Part shown: positions 1,500 through 36,124 of the stretch, piece after piece
Numbering within the stretch: position 1 is the stretch's first letter
Layout of the letters: the number at the start of each line of letters is the position of its first letter
Origin: Gammaproteobacteria bacterium
GTDB taxonomy: Bacteria; Pseudomonadota; Gammaproteobacteria; Steroidobacterales; Steroidobacteraceae
Direction of reading: 5' to 3'
DNA: 43,375 bases
Assembly (NCBI GenBank): GCA_030831085.1
Contig: JAURLT010000053.1
Span: 1-43,375, forward strand
Program-made: the position numbers and the translations under genes
The notes under the pieces: generated by a model
Databases searched by the model: none
What the model saw: only the letters and a program-made list of their open reading frames with translations
Told to the model about the DNA's origin: nothing

Positions 1500-2738
1500 A
1501 TGGCCGAAACTCCCCGACGGATCCTACTGGGCGTGACTGGCGGCATCGCCGCCTACAAGTCACCCGACGTGGTGCGCCGCCTGCGCGAGCGTGGCGCCGA
1601 GGTGCAGGTGGTGATGACCCCCTCGGCGCGCGAGTTTGTGGCGCCGTTGACCTTTCAGGCAGTCTCTGGTCGCGAGGTCCGGGAGTCGCTGTGGGATGCG
1701 GCGGCCGAGGCCGCCATGGGCCATATCGAGCTGGCGCGCTGGGCGGAGGCCGTGCTGATCGCCCCGGCGACCGCCGAGTTCCTGGCCCGGCTCACGCATG
1801 GGCGGGCCGATGACCTGCTGGCGACCCTGTGCCTGGCGACCACTGCTCCCGTGTTCGTCGCACCTGCCATGAACCGGGCGATGTGGGCTAATCCGGCAAC
1901 GCAGGACAACGTCAAGATCCTGCAGGGTCGCGGGATCACCGTGCTCGGGCCCGCCCGCGGCGAACAGGCCTGCGGCGAGGTGGGTGAGGGTCGCATGCTG
2001 GAACCTGCCGAGATTGCCGAGCGGCTGATGCAGCACTTGACCTGCGAGCCCGTACTCGCCGGCAGCAGGGTGGTGGTCTCCGCAGGGCCCACGCGGGAGC
2101 GCATCGACCCGGTCCGCTACATCAGCAACCGCAGCTCCGGCAAGATGGGCTACGCGGTGGCACAGGCCGCTCGCGAGGCCGGTGCGGACGTGGTGCTGGT
2201 CTCCGGTCCCGTTGCCTTGACCCCGCCTTCGGGGGTGCACGTGGTGAGGGTGGAGAGCGCCGCCGAGATGCACGCCGCGGTGCTGCAGGCGGTGAACGGG
2301 GCAGATGTCTACATCGGGGCCGCCGCGGTGGCCGATTACACGCCCAGCGTGATCCACCCGCAGAAGCTCAAGAAGCAGGCCGACACCCTGACGCTCGAAC
2401 TGGTTCGCGCCCCCGATGTCCTGGCGGAGGTGGCCGCACTCCGACCCCGCCCTTTCGTGGTGGGCTTTGCCGCCGAGACCGAGCAGCTCGAGGCCTATGC
2501 GCGGTCCAAGCTGGAGCGCAAGGCGCTCGACCTGATTGCGGCCAACCTGGTCGGTGACGAGACCGGCTTTGACCGCGACGACAACGCCCTGCTGCTGCTC
2601 TGGCCGGGCGGGCAGGCAACGCTGCCACAGGATTCGAAACTGTCCCTCGCGCGGCAACTGGTCAGGCGTATAGCCCTCCTGCGGTCGCCCGAACAGGCGC
2701 CGGCCGGGCGGGAAGCCCTGGGAGGCTCACTTGCATAG
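1500..2738 (+). CDS. coaBC: Bifunctional phosphopantothenoylcysteine decarboxylase / phosphopantothenate-cysteine ligase
   Basis: A 412-residue fusion enzyme of coenzyme A biosynthesis: the CoaB half joins phosphopantothenate to cysteine using CTP, and the CoaC half decarboxylates the product with FMN. Residues 1 to about 190 are the CoaC flavoprotein, with active-site H75 (MGHIELARW), N125 (PAMNRAMW) and C158 ([10 protein letters not shown]). The rest is CoaB, with N210 ([12 protein letters not shown]), the GAAAVADY segment and K289 (HPQKLKK). These key residues fall at the same numbers as in the E. coli enzyme, which supports the ATG at 1500 rather than an in-frame GTG-type start 12 codons earlier. 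The 3' end overlaps dut by 8 bases. Confidence 0.97.
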
Positions 2739-3183
2739 ACTGAAGGTCAGGATCCTCGACCCGCGGGTGGGCGATAGCCTCCCGCTCCCCACCCACGCCA
2801 CGCCGGGCTCGGCCGGCATGGACCTGCGCGCCTGTATCGACGGGCCGCTCACCCTGGCCCCCGGGCAAGCCGAGCTGGTGCCCACCGGCATCGCGATCCA
2901 TCTGGAAGATCCGGGCCTCGCGGCCATGCTGCTGCCGCGCTCGGGGCTCGGTCACAAGCATGGGGTGGTGCTCGGTAACCTGGTTGGGCTGATCGATTCG
3001 GACTACCAGGGCCAATTGCTGGTCTCGGCCTGGAATCGTGGCAGCGCGCCTTACGTGATCCAGCCCGGTGAGCGCATCGCCCAGATGGTACTGGTCCCGG
3101 TGGTGCAGGCCGAGCTCGAGGTAGTCGCCGATTTTGCCTCGAGCGAGCGCGGCGAGGGCGGCTTCGGGAGTTCGGGCCGCTAG
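2731..3183 (+). CDS. dut: Deoxyuridine 5'-triphosphate nucleotidohydrolase (dUTPase)
   Basis: A 150-residue trimeric-type dUTPase that hydrolyses dUTP to dUMP, preventing uracil incorporation and feeding dTMP synthesis. All five family motifs are visible: [10 protein letters not shown] (1), [10 protein letters not shown] (2), GLIDSDYQG (3), [10 protein letters not shown] (4) and the C-terminal [11 protein letters not shown] (5). The start is a TTG at 2731, preceded by GGGAGG about seven bases upstream; the gene overlaps the end of coaBC by 8 bases, so translation is probably coupled. The coaBC-dut pairing is widely conserved in Gammaproteobacteria. It converges with the gene at 3190. Confidence 0.96.
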
Positions 3184-3189
3184 CCCTCT

Positions 3190-3828
3190 TCAGCTGCCGG
3201 CACGCAGCTGGTTGAAGCGCGCGATGTCCGCGTCGAACTGGTCGTTGATCTCGGTGCGGTTGCGGATGCGCTGATCGAGGTTGGCGCGCTGCACGTCGAT
3301 CTCGTTCTCGGTGCGCTTGATGTCTTCCATCAGCCCCGCCGGCATCGGCTCCGCCTTGGGATCGTCGTTGAAGGGCTTGAACAGGTTGGAGCGCTTGACC
3401 AGCTCACGATGTCTGGCCACCAGGTTGTCGACCCCGAGCTTCAGCAACTGGATCTGCGAGTCGATCTGGTCAATGCGACGCCCCCGCACCAGCTCGATTT
3501 CCTCCACGCTCTGGTAGGCGGTGACCAGCATCCGGTCGCGCAGGGCGGCCTCTGCCTTGATGCGCGCGATGCGCTCGCGCTCCTTCTGGGCCTTGAGTTC
3601 CTCATCGGTGATGGTGCCCTCTTCGCGCCCCACCGTGATGCCCTGGCGGTTGATGAGATCCCGATCCTGGGTGGCGTATTCTGGCGGGACCCGGTCCCCG
3701 TAGTGGGTCTGGCCGCGCTTGTCGACCCACTTGTAGACCGTCTGGCCCTGGCTTTGTGCCGTCGCTGCCGCGGCCATAAGAGCCACGGCTATTGTCAGGA
3801 CGACGGGAGCCGGTGGTCTGAACTTCAT
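3190..3828 (-). CDS. DUF4124 domain-containing secreted coiled-coil protein
   Basis: A 212-residue protein with a cleavable-looking signal peptide (residues 1 to about 24, ending AAAATAQS). The YKWVDKRGQTHYGDRVPPE segment that follows is typical of the DUF4124 domain (Pfam PF13511). The remaining 150 residues are highly charged and probably form long helices or coiled coils (KAQKERERIARIKAEAALRDR and later segments). DUF4124 proteins are envelope-located and of unknown function. It lies 31 bases downstream of pyrE on the same strand. The ATG at 3828-3826 is chosen because it directly begins a signal peptide; sequence upstream in the same frame is pyrE antisense noise. Confidence 0.85.
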   Translation of the reverse strand: MKFRPPAPVVLTIAVALMAAAATAQSQGQTVYKWVDKRGQTHYGDRVPPEYATQDRDLINRQGITVGREEGTITDEELKAQKERERIARIKAEAALRDRMLVTAYQSVEEIELVRGRRIDQIDSQIQLLKLGVDNLVARHRELVKRSNLFKPFNDDPKAEPMPAGLMEDIKRTENEIDVQRANLDQRIRNRTEINDQFDADIARFNQLRAGS

Positions 3829-3859
3829 GATGGCGATTCTGCCTGTTTTGTGAGTTGTG

Positions 3860-4525
3860 TCATAACACTGAGTCACACTTTGATTTTTCGACCCCCCACT
3901 GGGCCCGGTAGTTCCTGAGGGCGGCCAGCTCTTTCTGGCGCTGGGCCGCCTCCAGGTGGGCAATGAGGTGGTCCAGGGCAATGATGTGGATGACCGGAAT
4001 GCCGAAGTCCTGCTCGACCTCCTGCACGGCCGACAGCTCCCTCTGGCCCCGCTCCTGCCGATCAAGTGCCACCACCACCCCAGCCGGGGTGGCCCCTGCC
4101 TCGCGGATGATCTCGATGGATTCGCGGATGGCGGTCCCGGCCGAGATGACGTCGTCGACCACCAGCACCCGCCCCTCGAGAGGCGCCCCAACCAGGCGCC
4201 CGCCCTCGCCGTGAGCCTTGGCCTCCTTGCGATTAAAGGCAAACGGCAGGCTGCGATCATGCCAGTCGGCCAGCGCCACCGCGGTAGTCGTCACCAACGG
4301 GATGCCCTTGTAGGCAGGCCCGAACAGCATGTCGAAAGGCAGGCCCGATTCGCTGACGGCGCGGGCATAGCAGCGACCAAGGGTGGAGATGGCCCCACCG
4401 CTGTTAAACAGTCCGGCGTTGAAGAAGTACGGGCTGACCCGACCGCTCTTGAGGGTGAACTCGCCAAAGCGCAGCACCTGGTGGGCGATGGCCAGTTCGA
4501 TGAATTCCTGCTGATAGGGCTGCAT
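3860..4525 (-). CDS. pyrE: Orotate phosphoribosyltransferase
   Basis: A 221-residue enzyme converting orotate and PRPP to OMP in pyrimidine biosynthesis. The N-terminal [16 protein letters not shown] and [10 protein letters not shown] segments and the PRPP-binding loop [13 protein letters not shown] (D124, D125) are intact. The length is slightly above the E. coli protein because of a short C-terminal extension. The start ATG at 4525 is preceded within a few bases by an AT-rich stretch (GATCAT then six bases), so a leaderless transcript is possible. It is divergent from exonuclease III, with only 34 bases between the start codons. Confidence 0.96.
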
Positions 4526-6622: not shown

Positions 6623-6984
6623 GCGCGGAGCGAGTGACGCTGTGCGCGCTCGACGACCTGCCACCCGGCCAGGTCCGTGCCTTCCGGGTGGGCGAGGGTC
6701 CGTGGCCGCTGGCGGGGCTCGTGCTGCGTCACGGCGAGGGTGTGCGTGCCTACTTGAACCGCTGTCCGCACGCGGGCCATCCGCTGAACCTCAAGCCCGA
6801 TGATTTCCTGGACGCCGAGGGTCGCTACATCGTCTGTCGCTCCCACGGGGCCCTGTTCGAGCCTGCCAATGGGCACTGCGTGGCCGGGCCCTGCGCGGGC
6901 AAGTGGCTGCCGCGGATCCCGGTGGAGGTGGAGGCAGGCCAGGTGCTGCTGGGTGCGGGCGTGACTGCGGAGGATTACCGGTGA
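6619..6984 (+). CDS. Small Rieske [2Fe-2S] ferredoxin-like protein
   Basis: A 121-residue single-domain protein. The cluster ligands are C49-x-H51 (NRCPHAGHP) and C73-x2-H76 (VCRSHGALF), the pattern that coordinates a [2Fe-2S] cluster through two Cys and two His. There is no transmembrane segment, so it is soluble, more like a Rieske-type ferredoxin or NirD-like subunit than a cytochrome bc1 Rieske protein. No oxygenase or reductase partner is encoded nearby. It is embedded in an operon, overlapping the AmpG-like gene by 4 bases (ATGA) and marC by 4 bases (GTGA). Partner and substrate are unknown. Confidence 0.88.
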   Translation: MSAERVTLCALDDLPPGQVRAFRVGEGPWPLAGLVLRHGEGVRAYLNRCPHAGHPLNLKPDDFLDAEGRYIVCRSHGALFEPANGHCVAGPCAGKWLPRIPVEVEAGQVLLGAGVTAEDYR

Positions 6985-7601
6985 TCGACGAGCTGATTAA
7001 ATTCTTCGTGCTGCTGTTCGTGGTGGTGGAACCCATCACCCTGGCACCGGTCTTTGCCAGCCTCACCCAGGGCGCGGATGCCGCGTACCGGCGCCGGATG
7101 TCGTTCAAGGCCACCCTGATTTCCCTCATCGTGCTGGTGGTCTCTGCGCTGGCAGGCGGCCGCTTCATCGAACTGATGGGCATCAGCATCGATGCCTTCC
7201 GCATCGCCGGCGGGGCCATGCTGTTCCTGATCGCGCTCGAGATGGTCTTTGCCCGCGAGTCCGGGACCAAGACCACCCAGGAGGAGAAGGCCGAGGTGCA
7301 ACAGCGGGCCGACATCTCCGTCTTCCCGCTCGCCTTTCCCTTCATCGCCGGCCCGGGCGCGCTGGCCACGGTGCTGCTCACCTTCTCGACCACGCGCGGC
7401 GACTGGATGCTGACGCTGGGCCTGCTGGGCGTGATTGCCCTGGTGCTGTTGATTACCCTGGGGGTGCTCCTGCTCACACCCTTCATCAACCGGGTCATGG
7501 GTGTCACCGGTGCGCACGTGGTCAGTCGCCTGACCGGCGTGGTGCTGGCCGCCCTCGCCGTGCAGTTCATCCTGAACGGGCTGCGGGGGGCTTTCGGCTA
7601 G
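6981..7601 (+). CDS. MarC family integral membrane protein
   Basis: A 206-residue protein with about six hydrophobic segments: near 8-28, 40-62, 68-90, 110-135, 145-170 and 180-200. The motifs EPITLAPVFASLT, FRIAGGAMLFLIALEM and PLAFPFIAGPGALATV are typical of the MarC/UPF0056 family. The family is widespread; its function is not established, and the early link to multiple antibiotic resistance was not upheld. The start GTG at 6981 overlaps the Rieske stop. Its last 4 bases overlap the convergent trmB gene. Confidence 0.9.
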   Translation: MIDELIKFFVLLFVVVEPITLAPVFASLTQGADAAYRRRMSFKATLISLIVLVVSALAGGRFIELMGISIDAFRIAGGAMLFLIALEMVFARESGTKTTQEEKAEVQQRADISVFPLAFPFIAGPGALATVLLTFSTTRGDWMLTLGLLGVIALVLLITLGVLLLTPFINRVMGVTGAHVVSRLTGVVLAALAVQFILNGLRGAFG

Positions 7602-8272
7602 CGGCGCCTGAACGCCAGGTCACGCACCACGTGACCGAGGCGATCGCCCCGCCGCTCGAAGCGGGTCACCGGTCGGCTTGTCGGGCGCTCCACCCAGTCC
7701 CCGGTCGGGGACAGGTTCTCGAAGTCAGCCGAGGCGGACATCACTTCCAGCATATGTTCGGCATAGGGCGCCCAGTCGGTGGCGAGCCTGAACACGCCAC
7801 CGGGCGTCAGCTTGCGGGCGAGCAGGGCGACGAAGTCGGGTTGCAGGATCCGGCGCTTGTGATGGCGCTTCTTGGGCCAGGGGTCGGGGAAATACAGCAG
7901 CACTTCGTCGAGCGACCCGTCCGGCAGTCGACGCTGCAGCACTTCCACCGCATCCTGACTCACCACGCGCAGGTTGGTCACGTCGCTGCGCTCGGCCAGT
8001 AGCAGGCAATGCCCCACTCCTGGTGGGTGCACCTCGATGCCCAGCATGTTGCGCTCGGGCTGCTGGGCGGCCAGCGCGACCGTGGACTCGCCGTCGCCGA
8101 AGCCGATCTCCAGGGTCACCGGGGCACAGCGCCCGAAGCAGGCCTCCAGGTCAATCGGTTCGTCTCCCGAATCAATGCCGTAGCGCGGCCACAACTCGGT
8201 CAGGGCGCGACGCTGGCCGTCGGTGATCCGGCCTGCCCGCTGCACGAAACTACGGATGGACCGTCTTTCCAT
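7598..8272 (-). CDS. trmB: tRNA (guanine-N7)-methyltransferase
   Basis: A 224-residue SAM-dependent enzyme that forms m7G46 in the variable loop of tRNAs. It contains the SAM-binding TLEIGFGDGEST motif, the GIEVHPPGVG segment, the hallmark FPDPWPKKRHHKRR stretch (catalytic Asp and RNA-binding basic residues) and a C-terminal TRFERRGDRLGH. The ATG at 8272 is preceded, six bases upstream, by a TATCAT -10-like element rather than a Shine-Dalgarno. It converges with marC with a 4-base overlap and diverges from the short-chain dehydrogenase gene. Confidence 0.95.
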   Translation of the reverse strand: MERRSIRSFVQRAGRITDGQRRALTELWPRYGIDSGDEPIDLEACFGRCAPVTLEIGFGDGESTVALAAQQPERNMLGIEVHPPGVGHCLLLAERSDVTNLRVVSQDAVEVLQRRLPDGSLDEVLLYFPDPWPKKRHHKRRILQPDFVALLARKLTPGGVFRLATDWAPYAEHMLEVMSASADFENLSPTGDWVERPTSRPVTRFERRGDRLGHVVRDLAFRRR

Positions 8273-8278
8273 GTCGGC

Positions 8279-8284
8279 ATGATA
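8279..8284 (-). promoter_or_regulatory. Putative trmB -10 element, leaderless spacing
   Basis: TATCAT on the minus strand matches the -10 consensus at 5 of 6 positions and lies six bases before the trmB ATG, so transcription would start at or next to the start codon. No convincing -35 is present at 17 bases. Inferred from sequence only. Confidence 0.35.
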
Positions 8285-8316
8285 CCGTTGCGGCCTCCTG
8301 CATATTGGAGCCGCGT

Positions 8317-9192
8317 ATGAATACCACGCTCGATGAACGTCCCGCTGCCGTGATCACCGGGGTCTCGACCGGCATTGGACGGGCCTGTGCCGAGGCGCTC
8401 CTGAGTGCCGGCTGGCGGATCTTTGGCAGCGTGCGCCGCCAGGCCGACGCCGAGGCGGCCGCCGCCGCGCTCGGCGAGGGCTTCACGCCACTGGTGTTCG
8501 ACGTCACCGACCCGGTGGCCATCGCCGCTGCGGCCGGGGTGGTGGGCGAGGCCCTGCAGGGCCGGACGCTGGAGGGCCTGGTCAACAATGCGGGCATCGC
8601 GGTGGCGGGACCGGTGGCCCACATCCCGCTCGAGGAGGTGCGTCACCAGTTCGAGGTCAACGTGATCGGGCAGATCCAGGTCCTGCAGGCCTTCCTGCCC
8701 ATGATGGGCATGGACCCGCGCTGGCAGGGCAAGCCCGGGCGCGTCATCAACATGAGTTCCGTGTCCGGGCGCATTGCCTCGCCCTTCATGAGCCCCTACG
8801 CCATGTCCAAGCATGCGCTCGAGGCGCTGTCCGAATCCCTGCGCCGCGAGTTGATGCCCTATGGCATCGACGTGGTGATCGTGGGGCCCGGTTCCATCCA
8901 GACCCCGATCTGGGCCAAGGCTGACGACATCAACGCGGAGCAGTACGCCCACACTGGCTATCTCGAACAACTCAAGGGCATGCGCTCGCGTATGCAGGCT
9001 TTCGGGGCCGCGGGCCTGCCCGCGGGGGATGTCGGCCGGCTGGTGCTGCGCATCCTGCAGGCTGCGCACCCCAAAACCCGCTACCCCATCCTGCGCAACC
9101 GATTCCTTATGTGGACCTTGCCCGGCCTCCTGCCCCGCCGCGTCGTGGACCGGATGCTCGCCCGCCGTTTCGGGCTGGGCGGCCGGAACTGA
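8317..9192 (+). CDS. Short-chain dehydrogenase/reductase (classical SDR)
   Basis: A 291-residue classical SDR. The NAD(P)-binding TGVSTGIG motif is at residues 14-21, NNAG follows, and the active site shows the Ser of NMSSVSG and YAMSK (Tyr and Lys). Beyond residue 200 is an extension with a basic, hydrophobic C-terminus ([20 protein letters not shown]) that may touch the membrane, as in several SDRs acting on lipids. The ATG at 8317 is preferred because TGGAG lies six bases upstream; a TTG four codons earlier is the alternative. Substrate unknown. Its 3' end lies antisense to the end of the rhlE-like gene (86 bases). Confidence 0.88.
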
Positions 9193-15613: not shown

Positions 15614-16476
15614 GAGACCTGCCTCGGGTCGAGTGCATCCTGCAGCGCATCCGAGAAGATGCTGAAGGCCATGACCAGCCCGAACATCAGCACCGAGGCT
15701 GCCAGGAAGTTGTTGAAGAAGCCGGCCAGTACCTCGAAGGTGCTCTCGGAAATCATCAGGCCCCAGCTCATGCCGTCCTTCACGCCGAGTCCGAGGAAGC
15801 TCAGGATCACCTCGGACTTGATGGCGGCCACGAAGGTGATGGTCGATTGCACCAGCAGGATGTGGAAGGTGTTGGGCAGGATGTGCCGGAAGATGATGGT
15901 GTATTCCGGCACACCGATTGCGTGGGCCGCCTCGACGAACTCCAGGCCCTTGAGCTTGATCACCTCGCCGCGCACCAGTCGCGCGGTGGTGATCCAGAAG
16001 GTGGAGATCATGGCTACGTGCATCGACCAGGGGTTGCCCTCCAGCGCGAAGGCGATGGCCGCCACCAGCAGGTAGAAGGGAATCGAGTCCAGCACGCCCA
16101 TCAGCCAGACCACGAACTCGTCGGTGGCCCGCCCGCTGAAGAACCCTGCCATGGCCCCCAGCACCGCACCGAGCAGGGTGGACAGCACGGCGACGATTAG
16201 GCCGATCTCGAAGGCCGTGCTGATGCTGTAGATGCTGCGCTGGAAAATGTCCTGGCCGATCAGGTTGGTACCGAACCAATGTTCGGATGAGACCGAGTCC
16301 CACTTGCCGCCCGCCACGTCGCCCCAGCCAGTGGCCCACAAGCCGAGCCATACGCCCACTGCGGCCACGAAATGGGCCAGCACGACGGCCAGCCCGAGCA
16401 TGCCGAAGCGGTCGCGGCGCAGCTTCCAGGCGGCCTTGGACCAGAGCGACTGGCGACGTGTTGCGGCGACGCTCAT
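15610..16476 (-). CDS. Dipeptide/oligopeptide ABC transporter permease (DppC/OppC type)
   Basis: A 288-residue inner-membrane protein with about six membrane segments. An N-terminal cytoplasmic stretch (WKLRRDRFGMLGLAVVL) is typical of OppC, followed by a periplasmic loop containing HWFGTNLIGQDIF and the ABC-permease EAA loop (FVEAAHAIGVPEYTIIFRHILPN). The C-terminal part includes EVILSFLGLGVKDGMSWG. It overlaps its neighbours by 4 bases on both sides, so subunit stoichiometry is probably kept by translational coupling. Confidence 0.93.
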   Translation of the reverse strand: MSVAATRRQSLWSKAAWKLRRDRFGMLGLAVVLAHFVAAVGVWLGLWATGWGDVAGGKWDSVSSEHWFGTNLIGQDIFQRSIYSISTAFEIGLIVAVLSTLLGAVLGAMAGFFSGRATDEFVVWLMGVLDSIPFYLLVAAIAFALEGNPWSMHVAMISTFWITTARLVRGEVIKLKGLEFVEAAHAIGVPEYTIIFRHILPNTFHILLVQSTITFVAAIKSEVILSFLGLGVKDGMSWGLMISESTFEVLAGFFNNFLAASVLMFGLVMAFSIFSDALQDALDPRQVS

Positions 16477-17426
16477 GACAGCGACACCCGAGGATCGACC
16501 GCCCGGTAGAGGACGTCGACCACCAGCTGGGCCAGCACGAACAGCACGGCGGTGAGGCCGACCACCGCCTTGAGCACAGGCTGGTCGCCGGTGGTGATGG
16601 CGTCGAAGGTCACCTTGCCCACGCCGGGGATGCCGAAGTAGGTCTCCACCAGCAGCGCGCCGCTGATGACGATCAGCGGAATGGTGAAGACCACCCTCGT
16701 GATGATGGGGATCAGGCAGTTTTTCAGCACGTTGCGGTAGAGCAGCTTGGCTGGCGGTACCCCGAAGGCCCGTGCCGTGCGCACATGGTCGCGGTTGAGT
16801 TCCTCGACGATCACCGAGCGATAGAAGCGCGTGTTGTAACCGAGGGCCACGAACACGGTGGCGAGGGTGGGTACCGTCACGTACTCGAGATATTCCGCAA
16901 GGGAATGCACGTTCCAGCCGCGCACCGGGAACCAGCCGAGCCCGGAGCTGGAGGAGAAGATGACCTGGAAGGCGATGATCACGATCAGGTAGCTGATGCT
17001 CATGCCCACCACGGAGAAAGCCATGATGCCCTTGTCGGGCCAGCGGCTGCGGTAATGCGCAGCCAGCAGGGCCAGCAACAGGGCCAGCAGGTTGCCCAGC
17101 AGGAAACCTGGCAGGATCAGCATCAGGGACACCGGGATGGTGCGCGCAAGGAGGTCGGTGACCAGCTCGCCGGTCGAGTTGGAGTTGCCGAAGTCGAGGG
17201 TGGCCACCTCCCGCAGGTAGTCGGCGTAGCGGACGAGGAAGGGCTGGTCGTAGCCGAGCTCGGCGCGGATCTCGGCGATCTGTTCGGCGGTGGGGTTCTT
17301 GCCCAGCAGCTGGTAGGTCTGGTCGGGCCCGAAGTAGACCATCAGCAGGAAGCTGATAAAGGTCACGCCGAGGAGCAGCGGAATGCCGGCCACCAGCCTG
17401 CGCAGGGAGTACTGCAGGACTTCCAT
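16473..17426 (-). CDS. Dipeptide/oligopeptide ABC transporter permease (DppB/OppB type)
   Basis: A 317-residue permease starting MEVLQYSLRRLVAGIPLLLG, a typical DppB/OppB N-terminus, with about six membrane segments. The EAA loop HVRTARAFGVPPAKLLYRN and the late GALLVETYFGIPGVGKVTFD segment are clear. It pairs with the OppC-type subunit to form the channel. The ATG follows the substrate-binding protein stop by only four bases, with AGGGGG just upstream as ribosome-binding site. Confidence 0.93.
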   Translation of the reverse strand: MEVLQYSLRRLVAGIPLLLGVTFISFLLMVYFGPDQTYQLLGKNPTAEQIAEIRAELGYDQPFLVRYADYLREVATLDFGNSNSTGELVTDLLARTIPVSLMLILPGFLLGNLLALLLALLAAHYRSRWPDKGIMAFSVVGMSISYLIVIIAFQVIFSSSSGLGWFPVRGWNVHSLAEYLEYVTVPTLATVFVALGYNTRFYRSVIVEELNRDHVRTARAFGVPPAKLLYRNVLKNCLIPIITRVVFTIPLIVISGALLVETYFGIPGVGKVTFDAITTGDQPVLKAVVGLTAVLFVLAQLVVDVLYRAVDPRVSLS

Positions 17427-17430
17427 CCCC

Positions 17431-19248
17431 CTAGTCCTCCACGTCCACGTATTTCAGGAAGAAGCCGCCCACGATCTCGCGATCCGGCAAGGCGATGACG
17501 TCCTTGTGCCAGAGGTGGATGCGGGTGCGTGCAAGCCCCGTCGCCGTCAGGCACGCGTCGATCACCATCTCGTTCATGCGGCGGTAGATCTCGGTCCGCT
17601 CCGGGGAGGGCAGCATGACGCTCGATTGTTCATACAGCGCGTCGTACTCGGGGTTGCGCCAGTTGGAGTCGTTGGAGCCCGGCGAGCTGTTCGGGCCGTA
17701 AAACAGCTGCAGGGTGTTCTCGGCATCCGGGTAGTCGAGTCCCCAGCCCTTCACCACCCAGGGCAGCTCCGCCTGCTTCCAGGCCTTGCTGATGTCGCCG
17801 AAGGTGGCGTACTGCTTGAGCACCACCTTTTCCGGCGGGTAGCCGATGTCCTTCAGCCAGGCCCGGAACTGTTCGAACATCAGCCGGTTCAGCACGTTGG
17901 CCGTAGTGCCGAAGGTGAACATGGGCAGGTTGGCGGCATTCCAGCCGTTGTCCTCGAGCAGCTTGCGCGCGCCCGCCACGTCTCGGGTGACGCTCACGCG
18001 AGACAGGTCAGGGTCGAACTCCGGTACCACGGGGACGATAATGCCGGGGAAGATGGTGCCGATGCCGCCGTAGAAGCTGTCGTTGCGCGCCGGCCAGTCG
18101 AAGGACTTGATGACCGCGCAGCGCAGCGCCTTGTTGCGGCGCTCGCGCTCTGGATCCTCGTTGTAGCCAAACTCCGGGTCCAGCAGGTTCCAGGTCTGGA
18201 AGATGAATCCTGCCTCCATGCCTGCGTAGAAGAAATACTTTTCCGCGTACTCGGGCTTCAGGGTGATCGGATGCTTGGAAGTCAGCACCCGGTCGATCTG
18301 CTCGTTGGGGATCGTGGTGTACTGGGCCTCGTCGCCCTTGGTGAAGGAGTTCCAGCGGGCCGAGGCATCGGCGATGAACTGGAACTCCAGCCGGTCGATG
18401 AAAGGGGGCGAGCGGCCCTCGATGCGCTCCAGGCCGTACTGGCCCTGGGTCGCCGGGTCGTAACCTTCGGCGGCGAGGTCAACGGGCTCCTGCCGGAAGC
18501 CCGGGTTGCGGTCCATGACGATGCGAGCCGTGTCGTAGGACACCAGCCGGAACGGACCGGATCCGACCGGGCGGATACCGAACTCGCGGCCGTAGTGTTC
18601 GACGGCCTCACGCGGCACCACCGAAGAATACCCCTGAGCCAGGGTGTCGAGCAGCTGTGGGTAGGGCTGCACCAGCTTGATCTGCAGGGTGTGATCATCC
18701 AGCGCGCGCAGCCCCTCGACCTCCTGGTCGTAGTTCGAGCCGGCCTCCTTCCAGGCATCCAGGCCGACGATGCGGCCCTGCCAGAGCCAGGCGCCTTGCG
18801 GGCGGGTAGCCGGGTCGAAATGGCGCTTCAGTGAGTACACCACGTCGGCGGCGGTGACCTCGCGTCCCTTGCCGTCGGGGAAGCATGGGTCGTCGATGTA
18901 ACGTACGCCCCGCTTCAGGCGAATAGTATAGGTGAGGGTGTCCGTGGAAATCTCCGGCCAACCGTCGGCCAGGTTCGGCTTCAGCACGTAGGGCCGGGCC
19001 AGGTACTGATAGGAGAACAGCGTGTCGTAGGCGTTGATCAGGACATGGTTGGCATAGACGTTGGAGGCCTGCACGGGATCCAGGCTGGTGGGCGATTCGT
19101 CCATGCTGTGCCGATAGACCTTCAGTCCCGCCGAGGAGCCCGGGCTGCTGTTGCCCGCGTCATCGCCACCGCCGCAGGCAGCCAGGCAAGCCATCAGGGC
19201 GGCCGGCAGCCAGCGGAGATTTGTGAGGGCCTTCAAGCTAGTCGTCAC
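17431..19248 (-). CDS. ABC transporter substrate-binding lipoprotein, family 5 (peptide type)
   Basis: A 605-residue binding protein. The N-terminus has a basic start, a hydrophobic core and the lipobox LAAC, so Cys25 or thereabouts is probably acylated, followed by the flexible GGGDDAGNSSPGSS linker. The mature part is a family 5 extracellular binding protein (LDPVQASNVYANHVLINAYD, YTIRLKRGVRYID, ADVVYSLKRHFDP, PVGSGPFRLVSYD), as in DppA and OppA. It is the first gene of the operon. The start is GTG at 19248 with no Shine-Dalgarno; a TATCAT element lies exactly six bases upstream. Probable ligands are di- or oligopeptides, but family 5 members also bind sugars, nickel complexes or opines. 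Confidence 0.9.
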   Translation of the reverse strand: MTTSLKALTNLRWLPAALMACLAACGGGDDAGNSSPGSSAGLKVYRHSMDESPTSLDPVQASNVYANHVLINAYDTLFSYQYLARPYVLKPNLADGWPEISTDTLTYTIRLKRGVRYIDDPCFPDGKGREVTAADVVYSLKRHFDPATRPQGAWLWQGRIVGLDAWKEAGSNYDQEVEGLRALDDHTLQIKLVQPYPQLLDTLAQGYSSVVPREAVEHYGREFGIRPVGSGPFRLVSYDTARIVMDRNPGFRQEPVDLAAEGYDPATQGQYGLERIEGRSPPFIDRLEFQFIADASARWNSFTKGDEAQYTTIPNEQIDRVLTSKHPITLKPEYAEKYFFYAGMEAGFIFQTWNLLDPEFGYNEDPERERRNKALRCAVIKSFDWPARNDSFYGGIGTIFPGIIVPVVPEFDPDLSRVSVTRDVAGARKLLEDNGWNAANLPMFTFGTTANVLNRLMFEQFRAWLKDIGYPPEKVVLKQYATFGDISKAWKQAELPWVVKGWGLDYPDAENTLQLFYGPNSSPGSNDSNWRNPEYDALYEQSSVMLPSPERTEIYRRMNEMVIDACLTATGLARTRIHLWHKDVIALPDREIVGGFFLKYVDVED

Positions 19249-31265: not shown

Positions 31266-32216
31266 TCAGTTGGCAGGAGGACAGGAGACGATCATCGTGA
31301 ATGAGTCATCTTCTGCCTTATTGGAGCTTCTGCCGAGGGTCATCACTGCGACTTGATTGGATGACGCGAGGACGGTCTGAGAGTTGGTGTTGCCAGCCGC
31401 CGCGAGCCACGCGCAGGTGCTGACATCGCGAGAGAAAGTCACGGTGTAGTCACCCTTGGCATTCCTGACGGCACCTGAGACCCCTCGCGAGCGTGCGGCA
31501 ACCACGACGCCGTCGCTGCCCACTACTGCGTGAATTCCACTGCCCTCGCCCGGAGGACCTTGGATGCCCTGATCGCCCTTGGGTCCCTGAGCACCATCGG
31601 CGCCTGCGGGGCCGGTATCGCCCTTGGGTCCTTGAGCACCATCAGCGCCATCGGCGCCTGCCGGGCCTGCCGGGCCTGCGGGGCCGGTATCGCCCTTGGG
31701 TCCTTGAGCGCCATCAGCACCATCAGCACCATCGGCGCCATCAGCACCATCGGCGCCTGCGGGGCCCATGGGTCCTGGGGCGCCCTCGAGCGCCGCATGC
31801 GTCCACATGAATCGGTAGGTCTCTACGACCGTACCATTGGGGCCTTTCTTGGCCGTGGTCGTGTTCGTGACGGCGACTTCGAAATCGCCGTAGGGAAACG
31901 CCGACGGAATTTCTACGGACAAAACGCTTTCCGACCGATCGATGATATTTGCCGCGAAACCACCCAGCGTCACCGTGGTGGTGGCCGCAAAGTTCTTGCC
32001 GACCAGATTGAGCAGTCGCGGGCTGCCGTCTACCTGAATCTCGTCCATGGTGACCTGGGCCACCTCCGGCGCTGCGGCCAGGGCCGCGCTGGATGCGAGC
32101 AAGGAGATGCCGAGCAGCGCTGCTCGCGAACTCTGCAATGAAACCGAAACGCCATGAGTTGCGCTACCGGCGCAAATGGCCCGGATCGCTCGGGCAAGCT
32201 GTTGAACACCGGACAT
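31266..32216 (-). CDS. Secreted collagen-like protein with IPT/TIG-like domain
   Basis: A 316-residue protein. A long N-terminal leader (about 48 residues, ending in a hydrophobic [17 protein letters not shown] signal) is followed by a beta-rich domain (residues about 55-135: [20 protein letters not shown] ... [11 protein letters not shown]) that resembles an IPT/TIG immunoglobulin-like fold. Next come 27 uninterrupted Gly-X-Y triplets (rich in [12 protein letters not shown]) and a C-terminal globular domain of about 90 residues with two cysteines that may trimerise the stalk. The Gly-X-Y stretch should form a collagen triple helix. The ATG at 32216 has AAGGAA eight bases upstream. Likely a cell-surface or secreted stalk; ligand unknown. 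Confidence 0.85.
31542..31784 (-). repeat. 27 Gly-X-Y collagen triplets
   Basis: These 243 bases encode 27 perfect G-X-Y triplets without interruption. Within them, a block encoding [15 protein letters not shown] recurs with near-identical DNA, so the region is itself a short tandem repeat prone to length change by slippage or recombination. The X and Y positions are rich in Pro, Ala, Asp and Lys; the KGD sequences favour triple-helix stability in bacterial collagens, which lack hydroxyproline. Confidence 0.9.
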
Positions 32217-32424
32217 GTCAGAAATTCCTTTTGTTACCCCGTTAAACGGACGTCCACAGTGCTCATTAGGTGTAACCGAAAACGAGCAGCCGCTCACGTT
32301 TTGACATGCTGTTCGATAGGCGCAAAGGATCTGTGAATCCGGTCCGACATGATGTCAAGTCGCACGCCGCCGGGGCACCGCCTTGCCGCGATCCGCGGCA
32401 TCGGGGTGGCTCTCAGGTCAGCGG

Positions 32425-32453
32425 TTGCTGGGAGGTAGGGTGGGGACTAAAAT
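32425..32453 (+). promoter_or_regulatory. Putative tRNA-type promoter ahead of the truncated tRNA-Gly copy
   Basis: A TTGCTG -35 (32425-32430) and TAAAAT -10 (32448-32453, 5 of 6) are separated by exactly 17 bases. The tRNA-like sequence begins 12 bases after the -10, with a GC-rich discriminator between, as expected for a stable-RNA promoter. It suggests that the left repeat copy is the original 5' end of the tRNA gene together with its promoter. The 200 bases to its left, up to the collagen-like gene, hold no gene I can see. Confidence 0.45.
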
Positions 32454-32464
32454 GGAAACCGGGC

Positions 32465-32486
32465 GCGGGTGTAGTTCAATGGTAGA
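32465..32486 (+). pseudogene. Truncated tRNA-Gly: 22-base 5' fragment (left attachment-site candidate)
   Basis: It begins GCGGGTGTAGTTCAATGG and covers the 5' acceptor strand and nearly all of the D arm, identical to bases 1-22 of the tRNA-Gly at 36051. From 32487 on the sequence departs completely: no anticodon arm, T arm or CCA follows. It cannot fold into a tRNA. A tRNA-like promoter precedes it. Confidence 0.85.
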
Positions 32487-32749
32487 GTGGTTATACCGTT
32501 GGTATCGGAGGGTCATGGCGGCACGTGGATGATCGCCTTGGCGACCTCGGCGCCGCTGAGCGAATCGTACTCGAGTCTTACGACAAGTACGATCTGTATG
32601 CGAGCTTGCGTAATGATCGTTTTGTGTTGCGCGCCTATGCCAAGAATGTGACCGATGAAAGAGCCATCGAGACTGTGTCGCCATTCTTCTCGTATGCGGT
32701 CGTTTCTCGACCGCGTACAGTGGGTTTGTCACTGACAATGAGTTTTTAG
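32486..32749 (+). pseudogene. C-terminal fragment of a TonB-dependent receptor
   Basis: The frame reads through 87 codons, from the edge of the tRNA fragment to a stop at 32747-32749. The products VGIGGSWRHVDDR, YDLYASLRNDRFVLRAYAKN, NVTDERA and the end RPRTVGLSLTMSF are the last beta-strands of an outer-membrane TonB-dependent receptor, with the usual terminal Phe. The rest of the barrel and the plug domain are missing; an in-frame stop lies in the tRNA fragment, so this cannot be expressed as a receptor. The break point coincides with the end of the 22-bp repeat. The complete receptor may have transported the peptides cut by the neighbouring oligopeptidase. Confidence 0.8.
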
Positions 32750-32764
32750 CCATCAGGATTGCTT

Positions 32765-32791
32765 GCTGGCTCGGTGTCATGCCGAGCCAGC
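32765..32791 (+). terminator. Strong hairpin after the receptor fragment
   Basis: A perfect 10-bp stem, GCTGGCTCGG (32765-32774) with CCGAGCCAGC (32782-32791), and a 7-base loop lies 15 bases after the receptor stop. There is no U-tract on the plus strand, so it may be a Rho-dependent or mRNA-stabilising hairpin rather than a classical terminator. Confidence 0.45.
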
Positions 32792-32862
32792 GGCATCCAA
32801 TATTCCCGATCGTGGACGCCTAAAATACAACTGTCGTCCAGCTTGACCACTGGAGAACAGCA

Positions 32863-35052
32863 GTGACAACAACGTCGTCACGAAGAAATTTTCTTAGAAC
32901 CCTGAACATGGCAGCCTCAGCAATCTTCATGTTCTCCCTGAATGTACATGCTTCGGATGACAGCGACCCGTATCAGTGGCTAGAGAACACCGGGTCGGCA
33001 GATGTGATCGAATGGGTGGAAAGTCAGAACAAAGAAACTGTAGAACAACTGACCAAGGAGCCAGGCTTTGATCAGCTCAGGGCGCGGTTTCTGTCGCTCT
33101 ATCAGTCTGATGATCGTCTTCCCGGGTTTGGTGAACTTCGGCAGCACCGAGGCATGGTTTACGCGCTGGAGCAGTCAACGGAGCATCCCCGCGGTGTTTT
33201 GAGGAGAGTTTCCGTTGAGAGCTATGGTCGTTCGAGTGCTCCATGGGAGGTTTTGGTAGATATTGACGCCATCGCTGACGAGGAGGGTAAGAATTGGTAC
33301 ACACCGCTCTTTAGACTCAGCTTTTCCCCAGATGGCAGCCGTGTGCTTCTAGGGTTGTCAGATGGTGGGTCGGAAGCGATTTCTTATCGAGAGTTTGACC
33401 TACACAAAAGGGAATTTGTGAAAGGAGGCTTTAGTACGCCAGTGGCTCGTCAATTTGCTGTTTGGGAAAACGAGAACACGCTGCAGATTGCTATTGTTCT
33501 TGCCTCGGACGAAGCAACAGAGTCTGGATACCCCAGGATAGTTAGACGTTGGCAGCGCGGCACAGACTTGAGAAGTGCCCAGTCAGTCTACGAGGGTTCA
33601 AGAAGTCATGTCCTGATCGCACCAACTATTGCGAGCTCCGCGAGCTACAGCAAACCGTTGATCTTGGATGCAAAGACCTTTTCTGAAGGAAGTGTGTACG
33701 CAGTAGACGACCAAAAAGGGCTCGTGAAGCTGGAGTTTCCTCAAGAAGTCATGGACTTTGCTTGGGTGGGGCTGCATGGCATTGACCAGACGATTTTTCT
33801 GTCGCTTCAAGCAGATTGGGCAGTCGGCGGGCAGGTCTTTCGTGCCGGCGATGTCGTCGGAGTCAATCTTCGAAAAATCATCGCTCAGGGTGGCAAAAGC
33901 GCAGGTGCTGTTGAAACAGTTTACTCAAGCGCAGAAAACCAGGCAATTCGTTTGAATGACGGCGTCGTCGTCTCAAAAGACACACTGCTGGTCAATGCAC
34001 TTTGTGATGTAATATCCTGCCTTAAAAGCATAGCCCTTGATGACAAGGGGAGCTGGGTTACTCAGGACGTGCAGTTGCCTGGACAAGGCACAGTAAATGC
34101 TGTTGGGGGCACGGATGTTTATTCCCCGGTTAGTCTTTGGACATATGAGAGTTTCCTGACAGCGCCGCAGTTGCTCGCAATTGAGCAAAACGCGGCCCCG
34201 ACAGTTAGAGCTCAGCAAGTGCCCTTTGATGGGCATGAAGAATTCGAAACAACGCAGATGTTCGCCTTGGCAAAGGACGGCACAAAAATCCCGTATTTTG
34301 TTGTCCATAAGAAGAGGCTAAAACTCGACGGTAGCTCGCCTGTAGTCATGTATGGATATGGTGGGTTTGGATTAAGCGTACCTGCATCGTATGAGCCTCG
34401 TTACATCGGGCCATTTCATGACATTTGGCTCAAGCAGGGTGGCATTTTTGTTTCGGTGAACCCTCGGGGTGGCGGGGAATATGGTCCCAAATGGTACAGC
34501 GTTGCTAAACGGCAAACGCGACAAACGGTGTACGATGATATCTACGCCGTCACCGAGGATTTGATTCAGCGAGGATTTACCGCCAAAGGGAAAGTTGGCT
34601 TTGTCGGCGGGTCAAACGGTGGGCTTACTGCAGGCGTGGTGGTAACACAGAGGCCAGACCTGTTTGGTGCGTCTGTTTCTCTTGTGCCACTGCTTGACAT
34701 GATGCGGTTCCATAAGCTCCTGGCCGGAGCGAGCTGGATGGATGAATATGGAAATCCAGAAGTTGATGCAGATAGAGAGGCGCTGTTGGGATATTCGCCC
34801 TATCAGAACATTGATGTGGATGCAAAATATCCAGAAATTTTCTTCATGACATCCACTCAAGACGATCATGTACATCCTGGGCATGCGAGAAAGATGGCTG
34901 CCAAGATGATGGCCTCCGGTCATCCGACGCTCTTCTACGAGGCGAAAGAAGGAGGGCATGCTATGGCGGTGAATGATGAAGGGAGGGCGTTCAATTCGGC
35001 AATGATAACGTCATATTTCATTCGCCAGTTGATGACGACCCGCGACCACTAA
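32863..35052 (+). CDS. Prolyl oligopeptidase family serine peptidase (S9A), Tat-exported
   Basis: A 729-residue enzyme. The N-terminus carries a twin-arginine motif (SRRNFLR) followed by a hydrophobic stretch and VHA, indicating export of the folded protein. The order is then the SDPYQWLEN entry helix of prolyl oligopeptidases, a seven-bladed propeller, and the hydrolase domain with YGYGGFG, NPRGGGEYGPKW, S584 (GGSNGG), an Asp in TQDDHVHPGHA and H699 (EGGHAM). All catalytic residues are present. The start is GTG at 32863 with GGAG upstream. Codon use is markedly AT-richer than the flanking genes, consistent with transfer. It cleaves after Pro in short peptides by family. A TAAAAT at about 32822 may be its -10. 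Confidence 0.92.
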   Translation: MTTTSSRRNFLRTLNMAASAIFMFSLNVHASDDSDPYQWLENTGSADVIEWVESQNKETVEQLTKEPGFDQLRARFLSLYQSDDRLPGFGELRQHRGMVYALEQSTEHPRGVLRRVSVESYGRSSAPWEVLVDIDAIADEEGKNWYTPLFRLSFSPDGSRVLLGLSDGGSEAISYREFDLHKREFVKGGFSTPVARQFAVWENENTLQIAIVLASDEATESGYPRIVRRWQRGTDLRSAQSVYEGSRSHVLIAPTIASSASYSKPLILDAKTFSEGSVYAVDDQKGLVKLEFPQEVMDFAWVGLHGIDQTIFLSLQADWAVGGQVFRAGDVVGVNLRKIIAQGGKSAGAVETVYSSAENQAIRLNDGVVVSKDTLLVNALCDVISCLKSIALDDKGSWVTQDVQLPGQGTVNAVGGTDVYSPVSLWTYESFLTAPQLLAIEQNAAPTVRAQQVPFDGHEEFETTQMFALAKDGTKIPYFVVHKKRLKLDGSSPVVMYGYGGFGLSVPASYEPRYIGPFHDIWLKQGGIFVSVNPRGGGEYGPKWYSVAKRQTRQTVYDDIYAVTEDLIQRGFTAKGKVGFVGGSNGGLTAGVVVTQRPDLFGASVSLVPLLDMMRFHKLLAGASWMDEYGNPEVDADREALLGYSPYQNIDVDAKYPEIFFMTSTQDDHVHPGHARKMAAKMMASGHPTLFYEAKEGGHAMAVNDEGRAFNSAMITSYFIRQLMTTRDH

Positions 35053-35179
35053 AGCCTCAATACTAGACCAACACTATGTTTCAGCGCGCCGACCGCCATC
35101 GATCAGCAGATGCGCGACGCCGACGTGCCTGGCAAATGCGGGTTGCGCCGGCGTGTCAACGCCGTGCCTCGAGTACGCG

Positions 35180-35272
35180 ACGGAGAATGTCGTTCGCACA
35201 GTCAGCATGCTCGGGCACGGCTCGGTCAGGTATACAGAGCAAGCGCTGGTTTGCGCCGCGCGTGCGCCCTAA
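35180..35272 (+). pseudogene. Possible tyrosine-recombinase C-terminal remnant (weak)
   Basis: One frame reads ENVVRTVSMLGHGSVRYTEQA and stops at 35270-35272. LGH, then five residues, then T-E is the register of the box II end of phage-type integrases (LGHSS...TTERY), but the catalytic Tyr position is Ala and nothing convincing precedes it. The 120 bases before it, back to the peptidase stop, hold no recognisable gene. Could be chance. Confidence 0.2.
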
Positions 35273-35274
35273 GA

Positions 35275-35799
35275 GGCGGTGTCCGCCTCGAGTTTCATGG
35301 TGAGCTTGGCGCCGAGCAGGTTGGTGCCCTGGTGAATGCGGCAATTCGGCTGGATAGAGTGCCGACGAGTGTTGCAAGCGTCGGATTGCCGTTTGCGTTC
35401 GTTCATTTACAAGACAAGAACTGGTTGTCAAAAATGTCGCTGCACCAGGAATCATTTGAGAAGTGCAGCCAGATTGGGACTCGAACGGTCGATGGTTTCT
35501 GTATCTGTGCGTTTTCCGTTGATCGCGAAGGGGACGGGACTATCGATGTTACTTCCCGAGTAGTCTCGCCACTTGCTATTCCAAACGAGGATCCTGCAAC
35601 GGGTAACGCCGCCGCAGCGTTATCGGCTCTGCTCGTGAAAACTGTTAGCCAGTTTCCGGTAACCATTAACGTAAGTCAGGGGGAATTTGTGGGTCGTTCG
35701 AGCGAGATTACCGTAGAACTGGCTAGCCCGGACGATAGTCCATTGGTTTCCGGGCGCTGTGTCCCGGTAAGTAGCGGAACTCTGTACGTCAATGATTGA
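35275..35799 (+). pseudogene. PhzF-family protein fragment (middle and C-terminal part)
   Basis: About 174 codons resemble the PhzF/diaminopimelate-epimerase-like family. PTSVASVGLPFAFVHL matches the mid-protein segment, NEDPATGNAAAALSALLV is the hallmark second-domain motif, and SQGEFVGRSSEITVEL is followed by GRCVPVSSGTLYV. The first domain, with the catalytic Glu and the GHPTLG segment, is absent; the sequence before 35275 has no similarity. The fragment therefore looks like a decayed isomerase. An ATG at 35110 keeps the frame open but adds unrelated sequence, so I treat this as a pseudogene rather than a full gene. Confidence 0.65.
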
Positions 35800-35989
35800 C
35801 AATCTTCTTGCGGGCTCTGCGAATCGACTCCCTTTCGGTGTGATTTTCCTACTTCAAGGACTCGCTGGCTGTAGCGGTTCTTGCAATGAAACTGAGTTCA
35901 AAGGCGTAAGTTATGTGCTCCAGTCGGTTGGCAGGTTTAGGAGAAGGCAAGTCGCCAATCTCTTCTCTCCGGGCCTCAGAATCGCTTAG
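35792..35989 (+). CDS. Small ORF with lipobox-like signal, doubtful
   Basis: A 65-codon frame overlapping the end of the PhzF remnant. Residues 12-28 are hydrophobic (LPFGVIFLLQGLAGC) and end in LAGC, a lipobox pattern, after which the sequence is short and featureless. There is no good ribosome-binding site. It could be a small lipoprotein, the start of a decayed one, or chance. The 60 bases between it and the tRNA contain only a weak TATGCT -10-like element at about 36010. Confidence 0.2.
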   Translation: MIDNLLAGSANRLPFGVIFLLQGLAGCSGSCNETEFKGVSYVLQSVGRFRRRQVANLFSPGLRIA

Positions 35990-36050
35990 AATCGACGTAC
36001 TCTCACTTTTATGCTCAGCCAGACCGAAGTGAGACGTAACTCCCTGATAA

Positions 36051-36124
36051 GCGGGTGTAGTTCAATGGTAGAACTGCAGCTTCCCAAGCTGCTAACGTGG
36101 GTTCGATTCCCATCACCCGCTCCA
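36051..36124 (+). tRNA. tRNA-Gly (anticodon CCC)
   Basis: A 74-base tRNA with encoded CCA. The acceptor stem GCGGGTG/CACCCGC pairs fully, the D arm is GTTC/GAAC, the anticodon stem is GCAGC/GCTGC around the loop TTCCCAA (anticodon CCC at 36083-36085), and the T arm is GTGGG/CCCAT around TTCGATT. The discriminator is T. It closely resembles E. coli glyU, the tRNA that reads GGG. Its first 22 bases are duplicated at 32465, which makes it the right edge of the island-like segment. It converges with the operon ending at 36166. Confidence 0.97.

Follow-up and report, generated by a model that had tools for sequence, protein, structure and literature searches.

The tRNA-Gly(CCC) locus

The window, i.e., the whole stretch of 43,375 nucleotides analysed here, is one contig (JAURLT010000053.1; G000:C3, where G, C, L and f label genomes, contigs, loci and families) of a metagenome-assembled genome (MAG; GCA_030831085.1) of a gammaproteobacterium of the Steroidobacteraceae, which consists of 181 contigs and is 89% complete. 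Its single tRNA gene, detected with ARAGORN, is preceded at a distance of 3.6 kb by a directly oriented copy of its first 22 bp. The segment between the two copies is very probably a decayed mobile cassette that had integrated at this gene. It resembles units in related genomes, in which the DNA immediately upstream of the intact tRNA-Gly(CCC), here called the right end (RE), belongs to the unit and not to the gene, as comparison shows. The features of the locus are the following.

32425..32464, + strand: probable displaced native promoter of tRNA-Gly(CCC); TTGCTG at 32425-32430, 17-nt spacer, TAAAAT at 32448-32453 (-17 from the tRNA start)
32465..32486, + strand: left copy, comprising bases 1-22 of tRNA-Gly(CCC) and interpreted as what is left of a truncated 5' half of ~37 bp (repeat search, BLAST)
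32487..32749, + strand: open reading frame (ORF) resembling the C-terminal end of a TonB-dependent receptor (from the translation, named by eye; the 74-aa ORF has no Pfam match)
32863..35052, + strand: ORF of a full-length S9 prolyl oligopeptidase, cargo (PF00326, 1.2e-41; PF02897, 7.8e-25)
35110..35799, + strand: ORF ending in the C-terminal half of a PhzF-like protein, a remnant (PF02567, 4.1e-13, profile positions 134-281 of 281)
35962..36050, + strand: RE of the element; TAGAAT at 35987-35992 (-64), CTCAC/CTCAG repeats, GTAACTCCCTGA at 36036-36047
36051..36087, + strand: 5' half of tRNA-Gly(CCC), anticodon loop included; this unit is common to the junctions of the family (junction alignments)
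36051..36124, + strand: intact tRNA-Gly(CCC) (ARAGORN); identical in sequence in G003 and G005 of the same genus

As stated in the initial annotation, the repeated 22-mer is the start of tRNA-Gly(CCC), and its right copy begins the intact gene. The copies at 32465-32486 and 36051-36072 are exact, and there is no further copy on either strand of the window. Since the 22-bp piece is found as a BLAST match with an E value of 1.5e-4 within the host genome, it is no chance word. The left copy ends after 22 bp, whereas the boundary repeat in relatives is the entire 5' half, ~37 bp up to the anticodon loop; immediately past 32486, the frame of the receptor remnant is open. The enclosed DNA is indeed richer in AT, with a GC content of ~0.51-0.56 in 1-kb steps against 0.61-0.63 immediately outside and 0.59 slightly further left. 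Its description as full of gene remnants holds for the receptor-like C-terminal end and the PhzF-like half, but not for the S9 peptidase, the ORF of which is full length. An Rfam search matched the tRNA alone.

The S9 peptidase was considered as a marker of the origin of the segment and discarded, as its closest full-length relatives, with 40-41% identity, are spread over families f14, f15 and f7, and no donor can be named. It also matches one partial frame in G163 (f7) with 56% identity over 191 aa.

A recurrent right end fused to the 5' half of the gene

Positions 35962..36050 of the window match the RE model with an nhmmer E value of 9.1e-40. The similarity to individual genomes is high: 90% over 115 bp between 35973-36087 and G027:C140, which belongs to another family and where the match also runs into the 5' half of tRNA-Gly, and 95% over 100 bp between the RE region and G057:C26. 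The RE with attached 5' half was matched in 40 of the 296 genomes of the order, including G257 and G277, in which the match comprises 36 bp at the tRNA side. Most of these genomes belong to one genus of family f7, and the host family of the window, f1, is represented by the genome of the window alone. Often, a genome contains several copies, spaced a few kb. A pattern scan that covered named genomes yielded 37 stretches, 24 from Gammaproteobacteria, 7 from Woeseiaceae and 6 from others, some of which may be mislabelled bins.

In an alignment of 50 of the 58 distinct full right ends (alignment A2; the 8 omitted are among the more divergent ones), identity continues through the 5' half up to the anticodon loop, TTCCCAA, and then splits. 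Past this point follows either the 3' half of the tRNA or a second conserved module of ~145 bp, starting with TCGGAGTCGCTGAG and here called the left end (LE). Among 76 distinct junctions of RE and 5' half, 32 lead into the LE, 29 into an intact tRNA, 11 elsewhere, and 4 are cut. In ten of the 11 that lead elsewhere, the sequence diverges after GCT of the anticodon stem; the remaining one is an odd left end. The junctions where GCT is followed by unrelated DNA are found at L062, L064, L067, L068, L074, L081, L106, L112, L124 and L244; several of them have a GATAGCGGACATTCG-like word in common, and they may be secondary sites or decayed tRNAs. At L230 8112-8272 (G182:C97), a second tRNA-Gly stands behind an RE; its body is of the CCC type but its anticodon is GCC, as though the codon of the cassette-driven copy had changed.

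RE and LE appear to behave as DNA sites, since their predicted base pairs show almost no two-sided changes (0/12 RE pairs and 1/14 LE pairs). For the same reason, a reading of the two ends as structured RNA was dropped. The motif TAACYNNNTGA, which was picked after inspection of the ends, occurs four times in the consensus ends, once in the RE and three times in the LE, with one copy inverted, and none of 20,000 simple shuffles reached four copies.

Units and their cargo

The LE was found in 32 of the 296 genomes, with a maximum of two candidates scored per genome. Units bounded by RE and LE, 32 in number and some of them with a truncated module at one end, range from 338 to 10,156 bp with a median of ~2.7 kb and often stand in tandem. 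The smallest one, at L080 1221-1558 (G174:C72), has no ORF of at least 80 aa and consists essentially of the two end modules alone.

The cargo is varied and includes metabolic genes. Among the matches listed are alcohol dehydrogenase, DoxX, LysR, BCCT and citrate transporters, TerC, DUF3604, TPR proteins and S9 peptidase. As these tallies cover 77 of 86 cargo ORFs, 25 of 132 Pfam families and 25 of 34 PHROGs families, they cannot by themselves exclude a recombinase. Near two cassette ends in G027:C140 (L031 3781-4543 and 11367-11941), two HigB/HigA-like toxin-antitoxin pairs were recognized by eye.

Replacement of the DNA upstream of the tRNA gene

In 13 of the 15 tRNA-Gly(CCC) loci of family f1 examined, a -10-like hexamer is located at -16 to -20 (TAGAAT in seven), and two loci have none. 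In the window, TAAAAT is located at -17 of the left copy, whereas the right copy lacks a hexamer at -16 to -20 and carries TAGAAT at -64 instead, like other right ends, which would give a leader of ~50 nt. Because the ~88 bp before the intact tRNA recur in 40 of the 296 genomes of the order, they are not native to the gene. The tRNA body in the window is of the host type, and the RE in front of it is foreign to f1. In the window copy, the exchange of promoters is suggested by this right end together with the -10 hexamer at the native position on the left.

In relatives, loci with and without arrays can be compared. The left flanks of G326 and G271, which belong to the same f7 genus, correspond over 2.5 kb with 83.5% identity (1556-4092 and 1619-4146), and the tRNA with its right flank over 2.1 kb with 79.9% identity (6949-9049 and 15627-17727), starting 13 bp before the tRNA. 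G271 has three RE/5'-half junctions, the last one at its tRNA, and no full RE, LE or RE/5'-half junction was found in G326. This array-free partner emerged from a comparison of the flanks of all units; the right flank of one unit, used as a probe, had given none.

In G211 (L243), a promoter of the native type lies to the left of an LE module, and the intact tRNA stands behind an RE. The left promoter and its counterpart directly on the tRNA in G182 (L230) share 87% identity over 63 bp, and none of 2000 shuffles scored as high. A second, weaker pair, G172 (L107) and G163 (L274), has a score of 28, which was likewise reached by none of 2000 shuffles. Thus, some relatives have kept the native promoter with a spare 5' half at the left of the unit, and the rebuilt tRNA carries upstream DNA derived from the element instead of its native promoter, the RE being the predicted promoter.

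The presence of this RE with its attached 5' half in 40 of the 296 genomes of the order, combined with the pairs G326/G271 and G211/G182, demonstrates that a family exists, an outcome to which the genome survey suggested in the initial annotation had been directed. These observations also bear out, for the relatives, its proposal that the 5' half of the gene is the target, that the body of the tRNA is cut off from its native promoter, and that the element supplies new upstream DNA. Both in the window and in the relatives, an intact tRNA gene is accompanied by a displaced terminal fragment in the same orientation. The search for an empty site gave an array-free locus for the family, and none with the window's own flanks (see below).

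Proposed mechanism

The arrangement could be explained by a tyrosine integrase for which RE, 5' half and LE together form an attP site, and which uses the anticodon loop as the point of recombination between this site and the tRNA gene. The copies of TAACYNNNTGA may be the arm-type sites of this integrase, and a core at the anticodon loop with arm sites on either side would resemble an attP of the lambda type. The integrase would act in trans, since the units have cargo yet no detected recombinase. After integration, the RE would drive synthesis of the pre-tRNA, the leader of which would be removed normally, and repeated insertion at the rebuilt gene would produce tandem arrays. In the window, the LE and the 5' part of the receptor gene may have been lost in a later deletion that spared 22 bp of the 5' half; the missing LE is most simply read as the outcome of a deletion that extended from the final 15 bp of the 5' half through the LE into the start of the receptor gene.

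Several observations weigh against a cassette with a swapped promoter in the window, or against the family as portrayed above. The 60 bp upstream of the left copy are most similar to those of G005 among the 15 f1 loci, a likeness equalled by 10 of 500 shuffles, and for the other f1 loci, 62 to 498 of 500 shuffles were as good. A BLAST match of 78% between 32437-32486 and G005, which is of the same genus, includes the tRNA itself in 22 of its 50 columns. Since the likeness to f1 promoters is weak, the native promoter in the window is assigned by the position of its -10 hexamer. A consensus promoter scan listed neither the candidate at 32425..32464 nor the RE, which has no good -35. In addition, no LE match was found in the window at an E value of 1e-3, and the anticodon stem of its tRNA gene is of the host type (TGCAGC), which differs from most units seen. 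A search with two flank proteins in 60 genomes of the family revealed no array-free site with the window's own flanks. As to the relatives, G326 contains a partial match to the RE model over the 5' half and the preceding ~13 bases. It also differs from G271 in other respects on the left side of the tRNA, so that it represents a locus free of an array, but no empty site that is perfect to the base. Finally, no 5' half accompanies at least five partial copies of the RE, and neither an excised circle nor movement of units was observed in this computational analysis.

The search for a recombinase belongs in the same balance. A search with PF00589, which covered 44 of the 46 genomes that have a module (all except G257 and G277), gave two matches on module-bearing contigs. 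One of these, the integrase at G182:C42 (L228), was rejected as a helper, because a piece of tRNA-Arg, recognized by eye, lies between it and the LE, so that it belongs to another island. The other one, an 84-aa recombinase fragment at G281:C32, adjoins an RE and is kept as unexplained. Just two PF00589 matches, presumably XerC and XerD, were present in 17 of the 44 genomes, and PF00239 had no match in 12 genomes. With two home-made hidden Markov models, which recovered 9 and 20 of 20 known regions, the second being partly built from these same regions, no integrase was detected in the window or in the units; the second model does detect the integrase of an ordinary 3'-type tRNA-Gly island in G017 (L036). 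Conversely, blastn found no RE, LE or 5' half in 20 regions around non-Xer integrases of six genomes. Five exact-pattern scans for the ends in viral_contigs gave no matches each, and an attP-like query retrieved 2 phage and 18 plasmid records, with all hits within positions 86-142, around the tRNA half. As no recombinase could be tied to the units, either a helper located elsewhere would act on them, or their present spread would be due to recombination between arrays.

The second option, in which no integrase is active now and the arrays spread by DNA uptake and homologous recombination via the RE-5'-half-LE modules, is less likely, but it fits the absence of a recombinase tied to the units, the 17 of 44 genomes with just two PF00589 matches and the lack of PF00239 matches. 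Also the ten of 76 junctions in which GCT is followed by unrelated DNA would be expected of ectopic or decayed copies. Nevertheless, a site-specific event, at least formerly, is needed to account for the precise termination at the anticodon loop and for the order of RE, 5' half and LE, which is seen repeatedly.

There is little chance that the 22-bp copy on the left is what remains of another tRNA-Gly gene, now decayed, or of a short tandem duplication, with ordinary variable DNA as the intervening segment. Precedents for such events exist in G023 (L008 1403-1501), where the intact tRNA-Gly(CCC) is preceded at 98 bp by a decayed tRNA-Gly, and in G039 (L050), which has a 124-bp tandem unit, and the low similarity between native promoters and the DNA preceding 32465 is in agreement with such an origin. 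However, a duplication leaves unexplained why the RE is fused to the 5' half in other families and why the LE stands behind 32 of the 76 junctions. Even more improbable is an assembly chimera joined at the tRNA repeat, which the fragmentation of the MAG into 181 contigs and the several other contigs ending at an RE might suggest: the tRNA body right of the RE is of the host type and the left-edge -10 is at the host position (an argument weakened by the poor likeness of the promoter sequence), so that the RE is foreign between two host-type edges whereas a single false join leaves one edge foreign, and the left junction lacks the module expected of a join driven by the repeat.

Relation to known systems

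Chromosomal integrons contain arrays of small units without an integrase of their own, all in one orientation and each with a recombination site. The cassettes share with them the small, integrase-less units in the same orientation with a site on each unit. They differ in that the site holds a tRNA half and has no covarying fold, some units have more than one gene as cargo, and no integrase is located beside the arrays: apart from the PF00589 matches at G182:C42 and G281:C32, none was found there. With the pair counts given above, an attC-type fold with conserved pairing is not apparent in RE or LE; attC boxes were not searched as such.

Integration in the 5' half is uncommon, as the initial annotation had supposed, yet known. 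Of the 3919 islands in Islander, for which an integrase gene is required, the displaced fragment is from the 5' side in 159 and from the 3' side in 3760 (PMC4383910). As described there, the 5'-fragment islands have an intact tRNA with a displaced 5' fragment in the same orientation and an anticodon-centred site (PMC4383910), as do the cassettes. The cassettes differ from the islands, as far as these are described there, in being mostly small and often tandem, with a dedicated upstream end and no integrase tied to the units. Recombinant bacterial tRNA genes retain their promoter with very few exceptions, and in archaeal pTN3-like elements the 5' half is used and the tRNA is expressed from the promoter of the integrase, according to the accessible portion of a review (PMC8371274). 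In comparison with this account, the cassettes are bacterial, their upstream DNA is a dedicated end module and not an integrase promoter, and no integrase gene was found.

The additive flexible genomic islands of Methylophilaceae use tRNA-Lys, with the last 20 bp of the gene repeated, in the sections of the paper that could be consulted (PMC10872708). As in the cassettes, groups of genes are marked by a recurrent repeat of a tRNA gene terminus; the difference is that the 3' end is repeated, and promoter replacement is not described in those sections (PMC10872708). Tycheposons, which were compared by the description in the same excerpt only, are cargo-carrying elements of 4-200 kbp at tRNA genes with a tyrosine recombinase (PMC10872708). 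The cassettes also reside at a tRNA gene and have no detected recombinase.

Thus, the family appears to work by integration in the 5' half of a tRNA gene, and it is not classed here as an integrase-bearing island, an integron or a tycheposon. No published description of this cassette family or its ends was found in the literature searched, most subscription journals being outside it, and integrase-less cassettes that supply a promoter look new. A more far-reaching proposal, put forward tentatively, is that Woeseiaceae and related gammaproteobacteria harbor a new integron-like class, in which a module of ~270 bp serves as att site and doubles as promoter of tRNA-Gly, the cassettes are captured and stacked at one tRNA gene by a recombinase acting in trans, and the newest one always drives the tRNA. 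In the family, cassettes replace the upstream DNA of tRNA-Gly(CCC) repeatedly, and expression of this tRNA would thereby depend on mobile DNA. The junction of RE, 5' half and LE can serve as a marker for islands that are rejected by integrase-based searches, and the family poses the question which recombinase moves cassettes that lack their own.

Other observations at tRNA-Gly(CCC)

Islands at tRNA-Gly(CCC) in G017:C3, G024:C188 and G006:C301 were considered as further examples and set aside, because they repeat the 3' end of the gene downstream. At L036 (G017), an integrase lies between such 3'-end repeats, showing that the same gene is used by ordinary 3'-type islands.

In two families, the intact gene is immediately preceded by a unit of 124 bp, at L050 (G039:C39) and at L031 4968-5092 (G027). 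It is composed of a 5' part of tRNA-Gly, a hairpin-rich stretch and a promoter-like end, and is probably a separate short duplication or mini-element.

In the window, the segment is adjoined at 31266-32297 by the gene for a protein that contains collagen-like repeats (PF01391) and matches TIG below the threshold.

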